A DNA stretch of 64,000 bases, from NCBI GenBank assembly GCA_023954155.1, contig JAMLIO010000004.1, positions 126,436 to 190,435 of the forward strand. The letters run 5' to 3'. Position 1 is the first letter of the stretch; each line of letters opens with the position of its first letter. Source of the DNA: Pseudobdellovibrionaceae bacterium. Its GTDB lineage: Bacteria > Bdellovibrionota > Bdellovibrionia > Bdellovibrionales > UBA1609. Shown here piece after piece: positions 42,086 through 50,469 of the stretch. The notes under the pieces were generated by a model. That model was not told the origin of the DNA. It was given only the letters and a program-made list of their open reading frames with translations, and made no database searches. The position numbers and the translations under genes were made by a program.

Positions 42086-43198
42086 TTAAAAGAAGCTTCG
42101 GTTATAGGCGATGCTTGAGATGATTCCTAGTGAGGCCATGGTGGTCAGCATAGATGAACCCCCATAGGAAAGCAGTGGCAAGGGCACCCCCACAATGGGC
42201 AATAACCCCATGATCATCCCTATATTGATAAAAAAGTGCCAAAATAAAATCGCAAGTATGCCTACGATGACAATGCTCCCATAGGGGTCCGAGGTGGTCT
42301 GGGCCACCCGTAAGCCCAAAAGAATAAGAATGGCAAAGAGGGCAATAGTAGTGAGACTTCCCACAAACCCATGCTCTTCACTTAACACACTAAAGATAAA
42401 ATCAGTATGTCGTTCGGGCAGGAATTCCAGTTGGGACTGAGTCCCCTTGCGAAATCCTTTTCCTAAAATTTTACCACTGCCCACCGCGATTTTAGATTGA
42501 ATCGAATTGTAACCTGCTCCACGAGGGTCACGACCTGGTGATAGAAAGGTTAGAACTCTTCCTTTTTGATATTCTTTAAGTCCATATTTCCAAGCTACAG
42601 GGATCGCAATGATGGTCCCAATGATGGCTGTGATGATGATGGACCTTTTGACTTTTACAAAAATAAGCATGGTGCCCACAATGGCCACATAAAGCAGTGA
42701 GGTTCCAAGGTCAGGCTGAGCGACCGTGAGAGCAAAAGGAATAAGTAAAAAGACCATGGGGATTAAAAGATCTTTTAAGCTCATGCCATCCTCTTTGACA
42801 CGAGCGGTGAAGATTTTGGCTAGAAGTAAAACTAGAGCGAGCTTCATGGTTTCTGAAGGCTGATATTTAAAAAAGCCCAAGTCTATCCAGCGCTGAGCCC
42901 CTAGGGCAGTTCGTCCAAATAAATCCACTACGACAAGCGCCCCAATATTGAGCACATAAATGACCATCACCCAACGTTTGATAAATTGATAGTTGATAAA
43001 GGTCACAATAAAAAAGATCACCCACCCTGCTAGCAGCCAGACAATCTGTTGCCAAAACAAACGATTCATATTGGAAGTAGCCAGCCCATGGGAGGCACTG
43101 TAAAGGTTGATCAACCCAATAATGTTTAAGGCCAAGATGACAATGGCAAAGTTGACATCAAACTTACGAATTCTTTGGTTATCACCAATGCTAATCAT
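42086..43198 (-). CDS. rodA: rod-shape SEDS glycosyltransferase RodA
   Basis: 370 residues with ten hydrophobic helices. GRTALGAQRWIDLG, KYQPSETMKLALV, RHTDFIFSVLSEEHGF and LPLLSYGGSSML are the SEDS signatures. It polymerises peptidoglycan glycan strands with PBP2 during elongation. It overlaps the mrdA end by eight bases. It is the last gene of mreC-mreD-mrdA-rodA. Confidence 0.95.
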   Translation of the reverse strand: MISIGDNQRIRKFDVNFAIVILALNIIGLINLYSASHGLATSNMNRLFWQQIVWLLAGWVIFFIVTFINYQFIKRWVMVIYVLNIGALVVVDLFGRTALGAQRWIDLGFFKYQPSETMKLALVLLLAKIFTARVKEDGMSLKDLLIPMVFLLIPFALTVAQPDLGTSLLYVAIVGTMLIFVKVKRSIIITAIIGTIIAIPVAWKYGLKEYQKGRVLTFLSPGRDPRGAGYNSIQSKIAVGSGKILGKGFRKGTQSQLEFLPERHTDFIFSVLSEEHGFVGSLTTIALFAILILLGLRVAQTTSDPYGSIVIVGILAILFWHFFINIGMIMGLLPIVGVPLPLLSYGGSSMLTTMASLGIISSIAYNRSFF

Positions 43199-45164
43199 TG
43201 CGCATCCCTATTTTCTTTTTATCAGTTACAAAAAGATCAGGATGATATTTGCGCATGTAGCCCTCCATCACATCTCTTGCAAGAGGGGCCGAGCCCGTAC
43301 TTCCATGACAAGAGTGCATAGTGATGACAGCCACTGCAATTTCAGGATTATCTGCGGGAGCATATCCTACGTACCAACCATGATGTCGATCTTCGATCTT
43401 TCGATCTTCACACTTTGAATAAATATCATCGGCCTTAAAGCTTCTGACCTGTGAGGTTCCAGTTTTACCTGCCATATCTACATGGGGAATCTTCCACCAA
43501 CGAGCCGTTCCACGTTCGCCATTGTTCACACGCCATAGGCCTTTTTTGACAGCTTGAAAACTTTCTTTTTTGATAGTTAAACCTGAAGGATTATTTTCTT
43601 CAGTCATATCGTAACGCATAAGTGGGTGGAACTCTTGTAAGCTTTGGTTGACGTTTTTGCTGGCTAAAACTTTTTTGACTAAAAGAGGTTTATAAAGTTT
43701 CCCTTCATTACCAATAGCCAAATAAGCTAAAGCCATTTGTAAAGGAGTCACATCCAAAGAGCCTTGCCCAATGGCATGAGATAGATCTTCCCCTTTTTGC
43801 CATTCTTCGCCTCGGTTTTTAAGTTTCCAATCGCGTGAGGGGACAAGACCTGGGGTCTCGTGGTCTATCCCCACATTGGTTTTTACCCCCAAACCAAAAG
43901 CTCTAGCAAACTTTGCCATGATGTCGATGTTTAAACCCACAGCCAGTTTATAGAAGAACACGTTACTTGAGGTTTCAAGAGCTGTAGAGACATTCACCAG
44001 ACCATGACCATGTCTTGTGTGATTGTGATAACGTCGACGACCCAAAACAAAAAAGCCAGGAGAGTCCATCAGAGTGTCAGGTTTAATGATGTCTTCTTCT
44101 AAAGCGGCTAAGGCCACAAAGACTTTGAAGGTGGAACCAGGAGAGAAGTGATCCTGAATGACTTTGTTTCTAAGAGGCTTAAAAGGGTGCATGATCAACT
44201 CGTTCCAATCTTTGCTGGATATTCCATATAAAAATTGGTTCGAGTCATAGGAAGGTTCACTGACCCAAGCTAGAATTTCCCCCTGTTTATTAAGAGCGAC
44301 TAGGGCCCCAATTCTTTGTCCAATATGGTCTTCACGTTGAAAGGCTTTGTTGGCGATCTCTTGAATGTCTTGGTCAATAGTCAATTGCAGATGGTGTCCT
44401 GACTGAGGTGGAATGGGAGCGAGGTTAGAACCTTCAAGCACAGTCTCTTCGATGTCTGTCACGCGACCGTGAGCATCGACTTGCACGTATGTAAGACCAT
44501 CTTCCCCACGAATTTCGTGGTCCCAAATTTTTTCCAGTCCCTTTTTCCCTATCATGTCCCCTGGGCTAAGACCTCGGCCTGCCACATCAGAATTATTAAG
44601 CTGAGCCCGAGAAACTTGTGAGATGTATCCAAACATTTGCGCGGCACTGTTACCAAAAGGATAAGAGCGAAAGATGAACTCTTCGACGTTTAAACTGGGA
44701 TGATCAAGACGTAAAAGTTTAAGAGCTAAAGTTTGATCAAAATTTAAATTATCAGCAATCACCGCTGGGAAGAACGTTCCGTTTTTAATAATGCTACGGC
44801 GGATCTGTTCTCGAACTTGAGCTGAGGTCATGCCTAGAATAGGGCCTACCTTCTCTGCTATAAGATTACGTTCTTCTTCTTTAAGGTTTTGCAGGTTTAA
44901 AGTCAGTTGCAGCACCATGGTGTTATCGACAAGTACACGTCCTTCGCGGTCCAAAATATACCCACGAGGGGCAAGTACTTTTTTTTGTTTCACACGGTTT
45001 TTCACGGAAACGTTTCTAAGTTGTTCACCTTGAATGATCTGCAAATGCCATAAACGGGCTAGAAGAATAAAAAATAGAAGTCCTAAGAAAAAGTATAGGA
45101 TCACAAAACGAGAAGAGAGGGTGTGAATCTGTTTCTCTGAGTCATATATGACTTCACCGCTCAT
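43191..45164 (-). CDS. mrdA: penicillin-binding protein 2 (transpeptidase)
   Basis: 657 residues. A signal anchor at about 20-42 is followed by the PBP dimerisation domain and the transpeptidase domain with SPGSTFK (SxxK, catalytic Ser), SSNVFFYK (SxN) and KTGTSQ (KTG). It crosslinks peptidoglycan in the elongasome with RodA. It starts five bases after mreD. Confidence 0.95.
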   Translation of the reverse strand: MSGEVIYDSEKQIHTLSSRFVILYFFLGLLFFILLARLWHLQIIQGEQLRNVSVKNRVKQKKVLAPRGYILDREGRVLVDNTMVLQLTLNLQNLKEEERNLIAEKVGPILGMTSAQVREQIRRSIIKNGTFFPAVIADNLNFDQTLALKLLRLDHPSLNVEEFIFRSYPFGNSAAQMFGYISQVSRAQLNNSDVAGRGLSPGDMIGKKGLEKIWDHEIRGEDGLTYVQVDAHGRVTDIEETVLEGSNLAPIPPQSGHHLQLTIDQDIQEIANKAFQREDHIGQRIGALVALNKQGEILAWVSEPSYDSNQFLYGISSKDWNELIMHPFKPLRNKVIQDHFSPGSTFKVFVALAALEEDIIKPDTLMDSPGFFVLGRRRYHNHTRHGHGLVNVSTALETSSNVFFYKLAVGLNIDIMAKFARAFGLGVKTNVGIDHETPGLVPSRDWKLKNRGEEWQKGEDLSHAIGQGSLDVTPLQMALAYLAIGNEGKLYKPLLVKKVLASKNVNQSLQEFHPLMRYDMTEENNPSGLTIKKESFQAVKKGLWRVNNGERGTARWWKIPHVDMAGKTGTSQVRSFKADDIYSKCEDRKIEDRHHGWYVGYAPADNPEIAVAVITMHSCHGSTGSAPLARDVMEGYMRKYHPDLFVTDKKKIGMRND

Positions 45165-45168
45165 GCGC

Positions 45169-45696
45169 TTAATCTCCTAAACCTTGAAACTCTGATGTTC
45201 GACTCCAGCGGTCTAATTTTTGCGAGAGGAAGTAAAGTGGGTAACTCATTACGGCTAACATTAAAGGCTGAATCAACCATTTGCCGATTTCAGGGACGAT
45301 GATCGGTGGTCCCTCGCTTGAAAAAGACAGAACAAAGTGCAGTGCTGGGAAAAGTAGAGCAGCACTGAGACTGACCAGAAAGAAGAAAGAAAACTCAGGC
45401 CAGAAGAAACGCTGTTTGATGAACTGTACAAAAACAAAAAGCATGATTAAAGCGGCTAGTAGCAGTCCGATAGGAATGGAAGTGAAACCCGCTAAAATGA
45501 AGGTGGTCACATAGGTGAAGATCAAGCTGTACCAGAAGGAATGGTAAAGGATCACAAAGACAAAGGGCAAAGCCCACAATTGCGGTTGAGGTAAATTCAT
45601 GGCAGGCCACAAGATGGTTTGAGCCCCAATGCAAATGGCAGTGAAGAAGGCAAACATGAAAAAGTTAAGGACCAATCTGAGATTCTTTTTAGGCAT
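45169..45696 (-). CDS. mreD: rod shape-determining protein MreD
   Basis: 175 residues with five or six hydrophobic helices and little else. Identification rests on size, topology and position between mreC and mrdA. The start ATG overlaps the mreC stop by one base (TAATG). Confidence 0.8.
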   Translation of the reverse strand: MPKKNLRLVLNFFMFAFFTAICIGAQTILWPAMNLPQPQLWALPFVFVILYHSFWYSLIFTYVTTFILAGFTSIPIGLLLAALIMLFVFVQFIKQRFFWPEFSFFFLVSLSAALLFPALHFVLSFSSEGPPIIVPEIGKWLIQPLMLAVMSYPLYFLSQKLDRWSRTSEFQGLGD

Positions 45697-46514
45697 TATT
45701 CTTTCTCCGAAATCTTTTTAATGACTAAAACGCGCTCGAGTTTATTGAGGTCCTCTAGAGGGCGTATGATGACACGTTTGCTGATGTTAAAGGCGTCGTT
45801 TTTAGAACTTTCAACGATTCCTAGCGGAAATCCTTTAGGCAGCATTTGGCTGTAGGGACTAGTCACAATGAGGTCACCTTTGAGGACATCATCAGGACGA
45901 CGGATGTTTTTGAGCTGAAGAGAGGTAGGACTACGGCCTTCCAGTAAGCCACGCACACGAGAGCGTTGAACCATGGCGTCCACCACAGCATAACGGTCGG
46001 TGATCAAAAGGGCGTTGCTGGTTTCAGGCAGAACTTCGGTGACGTAGCCAATGATATTCCCTGATTCACTTAAGAGCCCCATATACCGTTCAAGCCCCTG
46101 ATTGGCTCCTTTATTGAGCGTAATGCTTTCCATGTCAGGGAGAGCATCAAAACTGATGATTTCAGCAGCAATCAATTTGTGACTCGAAGAGCTTTTTAAA
46201 TCTAACAGTTTGCGGAGTTGCTGATTTTCTAGGCGTATTTCCTCGTAGCGAGCCACACGGGCATTCATAAAGGCTAAACGACGTTTTTGCTCCTCCTGCT
46301 GTTTTTTGATGTAAAGAAGATTCAGATATTCGTCAGTATTGCTGATAATGCGGTCACTGACCCAGTTAAAACCTGTTTGCACAGCGTGAGCGGTGTAGAC
46401 AAAGGGCAAATGCAAAGAGCGCCAGCGCCCTCCTTCAACATTGTAACTCACCAGAGGTACAACTACGATAAGCATAAAGCCAAAAAAGCGTTTGAGATCA
46501 AAGTTACCGTTCAA
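45696..46514 (-). CDS. mreC: rod shape-determining protein MreC
   Basis: 272 residues starting at TTG 46514; a stop lies upstream in frame and no ATG precedes the membrane helix. One N-terminal helix is followed by a coiled coil (IKKQQEEQKRRLAFMNARVA) and the MreC beta domains (GANQGLERYMGLL, VITDRYAVVDAMVQRSRVRG, VTSPYSQMLPKGFPLG). It links the periplasmic synthases to the MreB cytoskeleton. mreB is not adjacent in this window. Confidence 0.92.
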   Translation of the reverse strand: MNGNFDLKRFFGFMLIVVVPLVSYNVEGGRWRSLHLPFVYTAHAVQTGFNWVSDRIISNTDEYLNLLYIKKQQEEQKRRLAFMNARVARYEEIRLENQQLRKLLDLKSSSSHKLIAAEIISFDALPDMESITLNKGANQGLERYMGLLSESGNIIGYVTEVLPETSNALLITDRYAVVDAMVQRSRVRGLLEGRSPTSLQLKNIRRPDDVLKGDLIVTSPYSQMLPKGFPLGIVESSKNDAFNISKRVIIRPLEDLNKLERVLVIKKISEKE

Positions 46515-46678
46515 GTTCTTTTTGCCCCTTTTCCTGCTGTAAAATTATGGTTCTTAGTCTATGGCACCATATCGTTTTGCAAAGCGCAATTATGATTTTC
46601 ATATTATAGTTTAATTTAATTGCTAAAATCAAAAACTGTAGCAAAATATTTTGAGATTTAACACAAGAGGGCCAAACC

Positions 46679-48232
46679 ATGTCTAAGAACTTTAGAAGAA
46701 TTTTTGAGAAGCTTCGTCGACCCGATAAAAACCGTAAGAACCCAATTGCACTGCTTTTCTTTGGTGCGGTCTTTGCCATGATCATTTTTGCCTTCATTTT
46801 TATGGATCCAGGCATGATGGGTGGGGGGTCTTATGGAAACAGTGTCGCCATTCGTGTGGGCTCCTCAGTCATTCCCGTGTCTACTTATCGCCAACAGATG
46901 CAAATGGTAGAGCAAAGCATGGGTGGGATGCTCAATTCTGGTAATGATTACGTCATCAATATGATTCGTAGACAAATGCAGCAGCAGGCCATCAGTGCCA
47001 TGGTCAACAAAGAGATCATGGAGTCCATTCAAGATAAAGAAGGGCTTATCATCCCAGATGGTATGATCTCTAAGGCGATTATTGATCTAGATTTTTTAAA
47101 AGAAGACGGTCGCTTTCAACGAGACAGGTACTACGCGTTTCTGGCCAACATGGGTATGGCGGCTGAAGATTTTGAAAAAGGCTTTAGAAAAGACTTGCGT
47201 TATATGCTGGTGCAAGACCTCTTCGCAGAGTCTTTTAAAAAGAACAGTCTTGAGGACCGAGTCACTGAGGGGATGAAGGACCTGCGTTTTCAGTTTGACT
47301 ATGTGACTTTGGCTGAAGAGGACTTTAAAGCCCGTATGACCGTGACAGATGAAGAGGCTACACAGTTTTTACAGGACAGCAGTCAGCTTAAAAAAGCAAA
47401 AGACCATTATTCTAAAAATTTAGATCTTTACACCGTTCCAGATTCTGTAAAGGCCAAGATGATTTTGATCCTAGCAGAGGACGGCAGCCCGCAGTCTTTT
47501 GCAGACGCCAGAACTAGATTGGATGAAATTTCACAGACTCTTACAGTTGAGAACTTTGCCGAAAAGGCCAAAGAGCATTCAGATGACCCCACGGCGGCCC
47601 AAGGGGGCGAATTAGGTTATGTGGAAAGAGGGACCTATATTCCTGAATGGGATGATGTGGCCTTTAATACGAAGGTGGGAAAAATCTCAAGTCCTTTTAG
47701 AACTGATGCAGGTTGGATGCGCCTTCTGATTGAAGAGAAAAAAGTAGCTAAGAAGACTCAATTTGAAGATGTAAAACTGGACGTAGCTAAAAACCTAGTG
47801 GCCAGCACAAAAGCTCAGGCCACTTTTGACCAAATCCGAGGGCTTTTAAGAGACAAAAAAATACAAGACATCGAAACAGTTCTTAAAGACAATGACCTAC
47901 AATGGATCAGCACTCCAGTTATGGGCTTAGATGTGAACGCCATCCCAGGAATTGGCACTTCAGAAAGAATCGTTTCCAGCGTCTTGTCTTTAACTCAAGA
48001 CCAAGAGGTCTTTCCGTCACTCATTCCTTTTGACGAAAAATTATATTTACTTCGTCGCGGTAAAGTCACATTAGACAAAAGCAATGTATCTTCTCCTATG
48101 ATGCAAAACATGAATGAGCCTAAGCGCGACACAGTGGCTTTAGTTCAATGGTTAGACGCCCAAATGAAAAACTTCAAAGTAGACATGAACCCAGCTCTTC
48201 AAGAAGAAATGGAACAAAGACAAAGAAACTAA
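46679..48232 (+). CDS. PpiD/SurA-like periplasmic peptidyl-prolyl isomerase/chaperone
   Basis: 517 residues. One N-terminal membrane helix (IALLFFGAVFAMIIFAFIFM) anchors it in the inner membrane. A SurA-N-type helical domain follows. A parvulin domain at about 250-345 has AKEHSDDPTAAQGGELGYVE and VGKISSPFRTDAGW. It helps outer-membrane and secreted proteins fold. It is divergent from the mre operon. Confidence 0.88.
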   Translation: MSKNFRRIFEKLRRPDKNRKNPIALLFFGAVFAMIIFAFIFMDPGMMGGGSYGNSVAIRVGSSVIPVSTYRQQMQMVEQSMGGMLNSGNDYVINMIRRQMQQQAISAMVNKEIMESIQDKEGLIIPDGMISKAIIDLDFLKEDGRFQRDRYYAFLANMGMAAEDFEKGFRKDLRYMLVQDLFAESFKKNSLEDRVTEGMKDLRFQFDYVTLAEEDFKARMTVTDEEATQFLQDSSQLKKAKDHYSKNLDLYTVPDSVKAKMILILAEDGSPQSFADARTRLDEISQTLTVENFAEKAKEHSDDPTAAQGGELGYVERGTYIPEWDDVAFNTKVGKISSPFRTDAGWMRLLIEEKKVAKKTQFEDVKLDVAKNLVASTKAQATFDQIRGLLRDKKIQDIETVLKDNDLQWISTPVMGLDVNAIPGIGTSERIVSSVLSLTQDQEVFPSLIPFDEKLYLLRRGKVTLDKSNVSSPMMQNMNEPKRDTVALVQWLDAQMKNFKVDMNPALQEEMEQRQRN

Positions 48233-48303: not shown

Positions 48304-48462
48304 GCCCCTTCGTGGGGTGTGTTTTGGGAATTTATTTGTATATGGTCGAAATGCGAGTTCGGCTTGGCGTAGCTTTGCGAACGCAAAGCTATGCCAAACG
48401 TCACTGTCTGAGCATTTTGAGTATATACAAATAAATTCCCAAAACACACCCCACGAAGGGGC
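48304..48462. repeat. perfect 40-bp inverted repeat with nested hairpin
   Basis: The left arm 48304-48343 is the exact reverse complement of the right arm 48423-48462. The 79-base centre contains a second hairpin of 16 pairs (48364-48379 with 48382-48397, one G-U pair, 2-base loop). Each 40-bp arm also starts with its own short palindrome (CCCCTTCGTGGGG). RNA from either strand would fold into a long rod with a branched tip. The structure could be a non-autonomous mobile repeat, an attenuator-like terminator or a structured RNA. I do not recognise it as a known REP or MITE family. Confidence 0.85.
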
Positions 48463-48639: not shown

Positions 48640-50469
48640 ATGAAAATATTAGCAGTTTTGATTGTGACATTGTTGTGGCCGTTTATGTCTGTAGCACAGT
48701 CGGGGGACTTTGCTCCAGGTGAGATTATTGTCAAATTTAAATCCCCTAAATCAGACTTTAGGTCTTTGGGTAAGGCCGCAGCAAATGCGCAATTGACCCA
48801 CCAGAAGGCATGGCGTTCTGGGAACTTTCATCAGTTTTCTATGAAGACTTCAGATTCTGTGTACGATGTTTTGCAAAGACTAAAAGAAGATCCAGAAGTC
48901 GAATACGCCGAACCCAATTACTATCTTTATTCCAATCAACAAGCTTACTCTGCGACATCTGCGGCGATTGGTGTTGTAGAATCATGGAGCGTTCAGTCTG
49001 GAAATAGTGGGGGCGAGGCTCCTATTATTGCCATTTTAGATTCAGGTGTGGATGTCAATCATAGGGTGTTTAAAAATACAGGTCGTTTATGGACGAATCC
49101 TGGGGAATTAAATCATAACGGTTATGATGATGACCGTAACGGTTACAGAGACGACATTCACGGCTGGAACTTTATTGAGAACAACCCCAATGTGGATGAT
49201 CCTGCTCAAGGAACTGGACACGGAACCCATGTGGCGGGGATTGCTGTAGGGGTATCCGAAGAGATCAATAACTTTAAACCTAATAATGCGCCACCCGCTA
49301 AAGTGCAGATCATGGCTTTGAAATTCCTTGATGCTCAGGGTGTGGGAAAGACTTCTAATGCGATTGAAGCTATCTATTACGCTGTTGATAATGGCGCACG
49401 AGTGATCAACAACTCTTGGGGGGGCAGAAACTACAGTGCTGCACTACATGAGGCTCTGACTTACGCTTATAATAAAGGTGTGATCATTGTGTCTGCAGCA
49501 GGAAATAATGGAACAGATAATGATTTAAATCCCATGTATCCTGCCTCTTATGATGTTCCTAGTATGATCAGTGTCGCTGCTGTAGATAACTACGATCGTT
49601 TAGCTGATTTTTCAAATTATGGAGCAGAATCAGTACATGTGACGGCCCCAGGTATAGCCATTTACAGTACTGTGCCCACGGGTACAGGCCGTGAGTATTA
49701 TTATAAATCAGGAACCAGTATGGCGGCTCCGTTTATTGCGGGTCTTGCCGCTATGTTGATTCGTGAAGCTCCAGGGCTTACAGGTTATCAGATCAAAGAA
49801 AAGATTTTACAGTCTAGTCCTTCAGTGACTCGTTGTACGAGCTTACCAGTGCAGTTTTGTGTGGAAGATGATCGACGTATGGATGCTCGTGAAGCCGTGG
49901 TTTATGCTAAGAGTTCCAATAAAGAGGCTCCCTATCAGCCTTACTACTCTCCAAGTTATAAGATGGGTTCACGTGATTTAGCGTCGAGCGATCTTGTAGC
50001 TCAAGGATTTGGTTGTGGTACTGTCAGACAGCTTTATACAGATGCGAACTCTAATCTAGGACAAAAAAATAAACCTAGACATCCTTCTCCACTCACTCTT
50101 GTTCTGTTAGCCGCCCCTGTGCTTTTAGCCTTAGGGTTTAAATATCGTTACCGTCAGCATGATCGCAGAGCTTCAGAGCGTCAGCGTATCTTTATGCGTG
50201 GACAGATTGTCACGGATCGCGGATTTGTGGTTCCTGTGCAGGTCTTATGTTGGTCTGCAGGAGGCGCTGGTATCCAATTGACTGATGATGATCGTGAGGC
50301 CTTTAAAAATGCCGAGTCTTTCTCTAACGTCACTCTAAGAATCAAATCTAAGTTGGGGCAAATTGTGGTGTCTTCGGCCAAAGTGGTGCGCAAAGACCAA
50401 TCAGGATATATGGGTATCCAGTTTGACTCTGGTGCAGAGGTAGAAGGCGGTAAGGCGAAAGGGTCTTAA
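48640..50469 (+). CDS. subtilisin-like protease fused through a membrane helix to a PilZ domain
   Basis: 609 residues. A signal peptide (to about 19) is followed by an I9-type propeptide (about 23-97). The S8 domain has the triad Asp134 (AILDSGVD), His194 (GTGHGTHVAG) and Ser360 (SGTSMAAPF) and oxyanion Asn289. A linker and a membrane helix at about 483-500 (PLTLVLLAAPVLLALGF) follow. The 109-residue tail reads as a PilZ domain: RASER (510-514, RxxxR), CWSAGG (537-542, matching (D/N)xSxxG except Cys for the first residue) and YMGIQF. The topology puts the protease outside the inner membrane and the putative c-di-GMP sensor in the cytoplasm. A strong terminator follows the gene. Confidence 0.9.
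   Translation: MKILAVLIVTLLWPFMSVAQSGDFAPGEIIVKFKSPKSDFRSLGKAAANAQLTHQKAWRSGNFHQFSMKTSDSVYDVLQRLKEDPEVEYAEPNYYLYSNQQAYSATSAAIGVVESWSVQSGNSGGEAPIIAILDSGVDVNHRVFKNTGRLWTNPGELNHNGYDDDRNGYRDDIHGWNFIENNPNVDDPAQGTGHGTHVAGIAVGVSEEINNFKPNNAPPAKVQIMALKFLDAQGVGKTSNAIEAIYYAVDNGARVINNSWGGRNYSAALHEALTYAYNKGVIIVSAAGNNGTDNDLNPMYPASYDVPSMISVAAVDNYDRLADFSNYGAESVHVTAPGIAIYSTVPTGTGREYYYKSGTSMAAPFIAGLAAMLIREAPGLTGYQIKEKILQSSPSVTRCTSLPVQFCVEDDRRMDAREAVVYAKSSNKEAPYQPYYSPSYKMGSRDLASSDLVAQGFGCGTVRQLYTDANSNLGQKNKPRHPSPLTLVLLAAPVLLALGFKYRYRQHDRRASERQRIFMRGQIVTDRGFVVPVQVLCWSAGGAGIQLTDDDREAFKNAESFSNVTLRIKSKLGQIVVSSAKVVRKDQSGYMGIQFDSGAEVEGGKAKGS

Follow-up and report, generated by a model that had tools for sequence, protein, structure and literature searches.

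Can a cyclic dinucleotide inside the cell act on a protease outside it through a single polypeptide? This question is raised by one complete gene in the 64,000-nt stretch of DNA analyzed here (the window), which belongs to a genome of 2.44 Mb that is 99% complete. The encoded protein of 609 amino acids had been described, from its sequence, as an extracytoplasmic subtilase connected by one membrane helix to a cytoplasmic PilZ domain, and this layout was recovered in full (Table 1), including the complete propeptide, the catalytic triad, the three tail motifs RASER, CWSAGG and YMGIQF, and the helix, originally placed at about residues 483-500. The protease has both the fold and the Asp-His-Ser triad of the S8 family, and its nearest solved chain is deseasin MCP-01 (3vv3, E 1e-54). 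We therefore assign the overall anatomy, an exported subtilase with one helix and an inner PilZ-fold tail, with high confidence.

Table 1. Features of the subtilase-PilZ gene and protein, in window coordinates
Feature	Position	Strand	Evidence or remark
Subtilase - membrane helix - PilZ protein, complete gene	48640..50469	+	609 aa; layout kept across the order
Predicted Sec signal peptide, residues 1-19	48640..48696	+	top hydrophobic segment at the N-terminus; helix 2-15 in the model
Fervidolysin-type propeptide (Fervidolysin_NPro-like), residues 19-93	48694..48918	+	PF22148, E 1.6e-11
Peptidase S8 domain, residues 125-393	49012..49818	+	PF00082, E 1.2e-50, far over the cut-off
Catalytic Asp134	49039..49041	+	70/70 orthologs
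Catalytic His194	49219..49221	+	70/70 orthologs
Catalytic Ser360	49717..49719	+	70/70 orthologs
Gly458-Cys459-Gly460, start of the sorting-tag-like module	50011..50019	+	Cys in 70/70
Membrane helix, residues 482-500, with invariant Pro493, then basic residues	50083..50139	+	hydrophobicity; model; alignment
PilZ-fold domain, residues 508-597	50161..50430	+	Pfam matches of orthologous tails; model; structure searches
RxxxR (R510-A-S-E-R514)	50167..50181	+	both Arg in 63/63 tails
CWSAGG (537-542), altered (D/N)xSxxG	50248..50265	+	D/N position: Ser 31, Thr 25, Cys 5, Asp 1, Asn 1
YMGIQF, residues 590-595			present in the tail

No more than two hydrophobic windows of 19 residues are prominent in the protein, one at the N-terminus and the other coinciding with the helix. 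The mean number of Lys and Arg in the 15 residues flanking the helix is 5.75 on the tail side versus 1.26 on the protease side, and only 2 of 69 orthologs depart from this bias, with counts that are equal or inverted. The signal peptide and the Lys/Arg asymmetry jointly predict a topology with the protease outside and PilZ inside, as had been proposed, with 67 of the 69 orthologs conforming to the positive-inside rule. The linker of ~35 residues between the protease and the helix (residues 443-479) is modelled with low confidence, as disordered.

The PilZ assignment of the tail stood, but not by the route suggested for checking it: at a threshold as loose as E 1, PF07238 still matches neither the whole window protein nor its tail taken alone, and a profile of the protein's own family does not detect this tail either. 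By contrast, PF07238 matches 62 of the 63 aligned tails at E <= 0.01 (best E 1.5e-20), the window tail being the sole miss; in the ortholog (L066/L303) from genome G072, which we take to be Bdellovibrio bacteriovorus HD100, S8 is found with E 1.6e-48 and PilZ with E 2.9e-18, at 66.5 bits versus the PF07238 cut-off of 22.5. A 446-aa PilZ candidate that a crude regular expression returned from the same genome proved false. For the window tail, an AlphaFold2 model built with its orthologs has a pLDDT of 80.6 and consists of a helix and a six-stranded barrel. Solved PilZ domains, many of them bound to c-di-GMP, top both structure searches with this model: Foldseek gives E 1e-4 to 1e-3 against the BcsA PilZ domain and the PA0012-c-di-GMP complex, and VIA gives Z of ~9-11 against BcsA, MapZ, PlzA and VCA0042, with the single-domain matches at rmsd 2.3-3.4 across 82-98 residues. 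Thus, judging from its relatives and modelled fold rather than from its own Pfam score, the window tail is a PilZ domain. The two failed profile searches could be taken to mean that it is not, or that the likeness arose by chance, but this is hardly credible given the orthologous Pfam matches and the match of the model to solved PilZ domains, and chance is excluded because the entire layout is conserved throughout the order.

The window tail is, nevertheless, an unusually diverged member of its family. The ratio of PilZ identity to protease identity is 0.49, compared to 0.7-0.94 in most members, which places this tail among the four that diverge fastest relative to their own protease, and the C-terminal Trp helix is missing. 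A frameshift was rejected as the cause, as the other frames after position 50300 do not encode the PilZ C-terminal helix; simple divergence is preferred.

Conservation of the fusion among relatives, which the original prediction proposed to survey, was assessed by searching 291 genomes from across the phylum with a full-length profile. Matches that extend through PilZ occur in 87 of 97 order members and in both genomes from a second order within the class; some S8 match is present in 98 of 99 relatives. Among the matches listed from the 192 genomes of other classes, which reach E ~1e-120, well below the scores of full-length copies, none runs into PilZ. Of the 10 genomes of the order without the full fusion, two (G002 and G021) encode a protein that ends right after the helix, two (G312 and G315) have the gene broken by contig ends, five small genomes lack it, and the remaining one is G309. 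The named orthologs all come from Bdellovibrio, Bdellovibrionales or Bdellovibrionota, and the relatives include a B. bacteriovorus-type genome. A profile search of contigs gave, among the matches listed, five PilZ fusions (L122 and L124-L127), all of them under these three names; general subtilases filled the list, so fusions beyond the phylum are conceivable. Outside the class, a family (f14; for example, in GWA2_38_16) combines a subtilase with a Cys-helix-basic end and has no PilZ. In the tree of protease domains, these PilZ-less subtilases form one supported group, and the order's own PilZ-less copies are scattered, with six label changes, at least two of which are forced by well-supported branches. 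This pattern fits a scenario in which an older, tagged subtilase gained PilZ in the class, followed by losses or by the emergence of additional tag-only copies; the root is ambiguous. The source genome itself encodes a second subtilase with a Cys-helix-basic end and no PilZ (L003, C1:289558-290691), which adjoins ATP synthase genes.

The original prediction missed a Gly-Cys-Gly motif and its likeness to a cleavable C-terminal sorting tag, and because of this likeness, the probable mechanism differs from the one first proposed. Across the 70 aligned orthologs, Gly458, Cys459 and Pro493 are invariant and Gly460 is retained in 69, so that the motif and the helix proline match the catalytic core in conservation, whereas the intervening linker differs in length between orthologs and is disordered in the model. 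The same succession of Cys motif, Pro-containing helix and basic residues is found at the extreme C-terminus of five PilZ-less subtilases (L128, L202, L208, L209 and L213). A profile of the module identified further C-terminal copies, in the same and related genomes, in C25-like peptidases (L088, L265 and L266), Gly-rich proteins (L220 and L275), metalloprotease-like proteins (L272 and L276), a pair of CxxCH proteins (L273 and L274), a PilZ-less paralog (L269) and others, the protein types being our reading of the sequences. The individual matches are modest (mostly E 1e-5 to 1e-2 per genome), but their position and build are consistent. A Gly/Pro-rich spacer between the Gly-Cys-Gly motif and the Pro-containing helix, and an Arg/Lys end, can be seen in L003, L088, L220, L265, L266 and L268-L277.

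Sequence comparison makes it probable that this recurrent module is a MYXO-CTERM-like sorting signal of Bdellovibrionota that lies beyond the NCBIfam and Pfam models at their cut-offs, except in L088, an unrelated exported protein whose tail scores 20.3 bits against the TIGR03901 cut-off of 20. No known CTERM model exceeds its cut-off for the subtilase-PilZ family, no member of which matches TIGR03901 (20 bits), and searches of 12 genomes with TIGR03901 gave no match over the cut-off. The family shares with MYXO-CTERM the Cys-helix-basic order and neither the TIGR03901 score nor the terminal position: the helix is followed by a further ~105 residues that contain PilZ, and only in the PilZ-less homologs does the module end the protein. 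A CPBP myxosortase was rejected as the general processing enzyme because no CPBP-type protease was detected in two of the seven genomes examined, G072 and G002, both of which carry the module; rhomboids are present in module-bearing genomes but also in all control genomes, that is, nearly universally. An intrachain disulfide was likewise rejected as the role of Cys459, given that the column of C407, another cysteine of the linker, is not conserved and no other Cys falls in the columns conserved in 68 of 70 sequences; an intermolecular disulfide is possible.

All 63 tails, that of the window protein included, preserve the two RxxxR arginines and the SxGG, a retention beyond what the fold itself demands. 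The second canonical receptor motif, (D/N)xSxxG, is not intact in the window tail. The Cys at its first position was rightly flagged as an alteration that might affect ligand binding but is not peculiar to this protein, Ser, Thr or Cys occupying the position in 61 of the 63 tails. Asp or Asn occurs there in just two tails, L052 (genome G053) and L085 (G082), which are also among the most diverged PilZ tails. The source genome encodes five other PilZ proteins, and in those read the residue is D or N three times (once in NISISG) and Q once, so the substitution is a property of the subtilase-PilZ family. Of 99 relatives, 97 encode GGDEF enzymes. Three GGDEF domains occur in the source genome, where no EAL domain was detected, and an absence of c-di-GMP from this organism was rejected on their account. 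Furthermore, B. bacteriovorus makes 3',3'-cGAMP via a Hypr GGDEF enzyme in which an Asp-to-Ser change relaxes the choice of purine (PMC9140294); by analogy, one might speculate that the Ser/Thr-altered PilZ pocket serves cGAMP in the same manner.

Taken together, these observations lead us to a tentative proposal for the function of the protein. A Sec-exported, self-processing subtilase would sit in the inner membrane, its protease facing outward and its PilZ domain facing the cytoplasm, with the tripartite tag-like module (Gly-Cys-Gly, Pro-containing helix and basic residues) between them. PilZ would bind either a partner protein or a cyclic dinucleotide, be it c-di-GMP or, with the pocket altered, a similar molecule, and its state would set the fate of the protease: retention on the inner membrane, or processing close to the Cys followed by outward transport. 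The analysis shows the domain layout, the predicted topology, the conservation, the altered pocket and the tag module with its copies on other proteins; we infer the ligand, the processing and the coupling alike. Besides the domain and fold evidence and the positive-inside topology, such PilZ-dependent retention or processing is suggested by the invariance of Cys459 and Pro493 within a variable, disordered linker, by the presence of the same module at the ends of PilZ-less subtilases and unrelated exported proteins, by the Cys-dependent cleavage of the similarly built MYXO-CTERM tags (PMC11980579), and by the intact RxxxR and SxGG along with the prevalence of GGDEF enzymes. Against it count the sub-threshold TIGR03901 scores, the missing CPBP proteases in G072 and G002, and the fast divergence of the window PilZ tail and its lack of the Trp helix. 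In addition, G002 and G021 have lost PilZ with the rest of the protein kept, which implies that the core enzyme works without it, and, the pocket being non-canonical, nucleotide binding is not assured.

The original idea was a permanent tether that is never cut at the Cys, with the PilZ ligand directly altering the activity, dimerization or polar position of the protease, in effect a one-chain counterpart of LapD-LapG. This alternative, which we consider possible but doubtful, agrees with the single-pass layout and the conserved RxxxR and SxGG; it has a precedent in LapD-LapG, and BcsA, one of the top structure matches, also has its PilZ domain after membrane helices. However, the low-confidence linker provides no rigid coupling, and the tether leaves unexplained the invariant Gly-Cys-Gly motif and its reuse on unrelated proteins. 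PilZ-gated processing is narrowly favored over allostery through the helix because PilZ sits exactly behind a sorting-type module, and simple allostery is disfavored by the flexibility of the linker.

A PilZ domain that no longer binds nucleotides and instead anchors the protease to a complex or a cell pole through protein-protein contacts is rather unlikely; it would apply best to the window species, with its PilZ domain in decay. The replacement of D/N, the failure of Pfam and of the family profile to detect the highly diverged window tail, and the loss of PilZ in G002 and G021 all speak for such an anchor. Conversely, the Arg pair and SxGG are intact throughout, including in the window protein, and in most members PilZ is nearly as conserved as the protease. 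A further reading, which we regard as improbable, is that the cytoplasmic end of a sorting tag was extended into a nucleotide-sensing PilZ domain, letting a second messenger control when the exported protease is cleaved and deployed at the surface; in this reading, the Ser/Thr-altered pocket may read 3',3'-cGAMP.

The genomic neighborhood adds limited context. Next to the subtilase gene, window positions 42086-48232 carry rodA, PBP2, mreD and mreC on the minus strand, together with a gene for a PpiD/SurA-like foldase. The ppiD-like and mreC/mreD/PBP2 neighbors recur at 15-18 of 41 loci, so a conserved operon was rejected, the conservation being only partial. Just upstream of the gene, at 48304-48462, is a near-perfect inverted repeat, with 51-nt arms that are 94% complementary and an inner pair of 16 nt; it has no Rfam match and no second copy in the window, and a long hairpin and a small mobile element are both conceivable.

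If the proposed coupling is real, a single polypeptide joins an inner second messenger to an outside-facing protease in predatory bacteria in which c-di-GMP and cGAMP are known to govern invasion and exit; the class-wide conservation provides a comparative set, in which the natural PilZ-loss forms serve as controls. Separately from the PilZ question, the Cys-helix-basic module points to a protein-sorting route in Bdellovibrionota that is probably undescribed.

Comparison with known systems delimits what is new. The PilZ domains of BcsA, Alg44 and PA0012 are canonical c-di-GMP receptors. They share the fold and RxxxR with the window family, and that of BcsA is also located behind membrane helices, but the output of BcsA and Alg44 is polysaccharide synthesis, whereas the partner domain here is a protease. 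Mycosin, the S8 protease of type VII secretion systems, is similarly exported and has a C-terminal helix but lacks PilZ; it is the best NCBIfam match of the window protein, with E 2e-37 and 129 bits against a cut-off of 278.75. The closest counterpart is Subt-PilZ of B. bacteriovorus HD100 (NP_969350.1), tabulated in 2008 under 'Signalling' (Table 3 of PMC2605481), which has the same domain order and very probably is the ortholog represented by L066/L303 in G072; the entry lists the domain pair only, with no topology, Cys-helix module, pocket analysis or survey. Genome G072 contains two PilZ genes ~24 kb, or 20 open reading frames, apart, the second of which is the subtilase-PilZ ortholog; given this spacing, it may correspond to Bd2545, which, like the pilZ gene Bd2524, is down-regulated on leaving attack phase (PMC2797640). 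In the open-access literature, we found no paper on the function of the protein and no description of its class-wide conservation, altered pocket or surface-sorting tag. Hence the domain pairing has been known since 2008, and the conservation across the class, the altered pocket and the built-in tag seem to be new.

The module of the window family resembles the MYXO-CTERM of Myxococcus xanthus, where, in the TraA-MrtX system, cleavage and anchoring at the surface depend on the Cys (PMC11980579): both comprise an invariant Cys motif, a membrane helix and basic cytoplasmic residues on exported proteins. The window-family module differs in being internal, with PilZ behind it, in its longer spacing from Cys to helix and in the invariant Pro of the helix, as well as in the TIGR03901 score and the CPBP-less genomes noted above; we draw the analogy and do not claim membership. 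Finally, the original prediction considered the inside-out design undescribed, which is not supported in view of both the 2008 entry (PMC2605481) and the LapD-LapG system of Pseudomonas fluorescens, in which control of periplasmic proteolysis by cytoplasmic c-di-GMP is established (PMC3032545, PMC3032553). The likeness to LapD-LapG, in which a c-di-GMP input inside has a proteolytic output across the inner membrane, is an analogy only. That system consists of two proteins, with a degenerate GGDEF-EAL receptor and a cysteine protease and with neither PilZ nor subtilase, and the window protein falls outside its definition, Pfam returning only S8 and the propeptide from the 609 residues.
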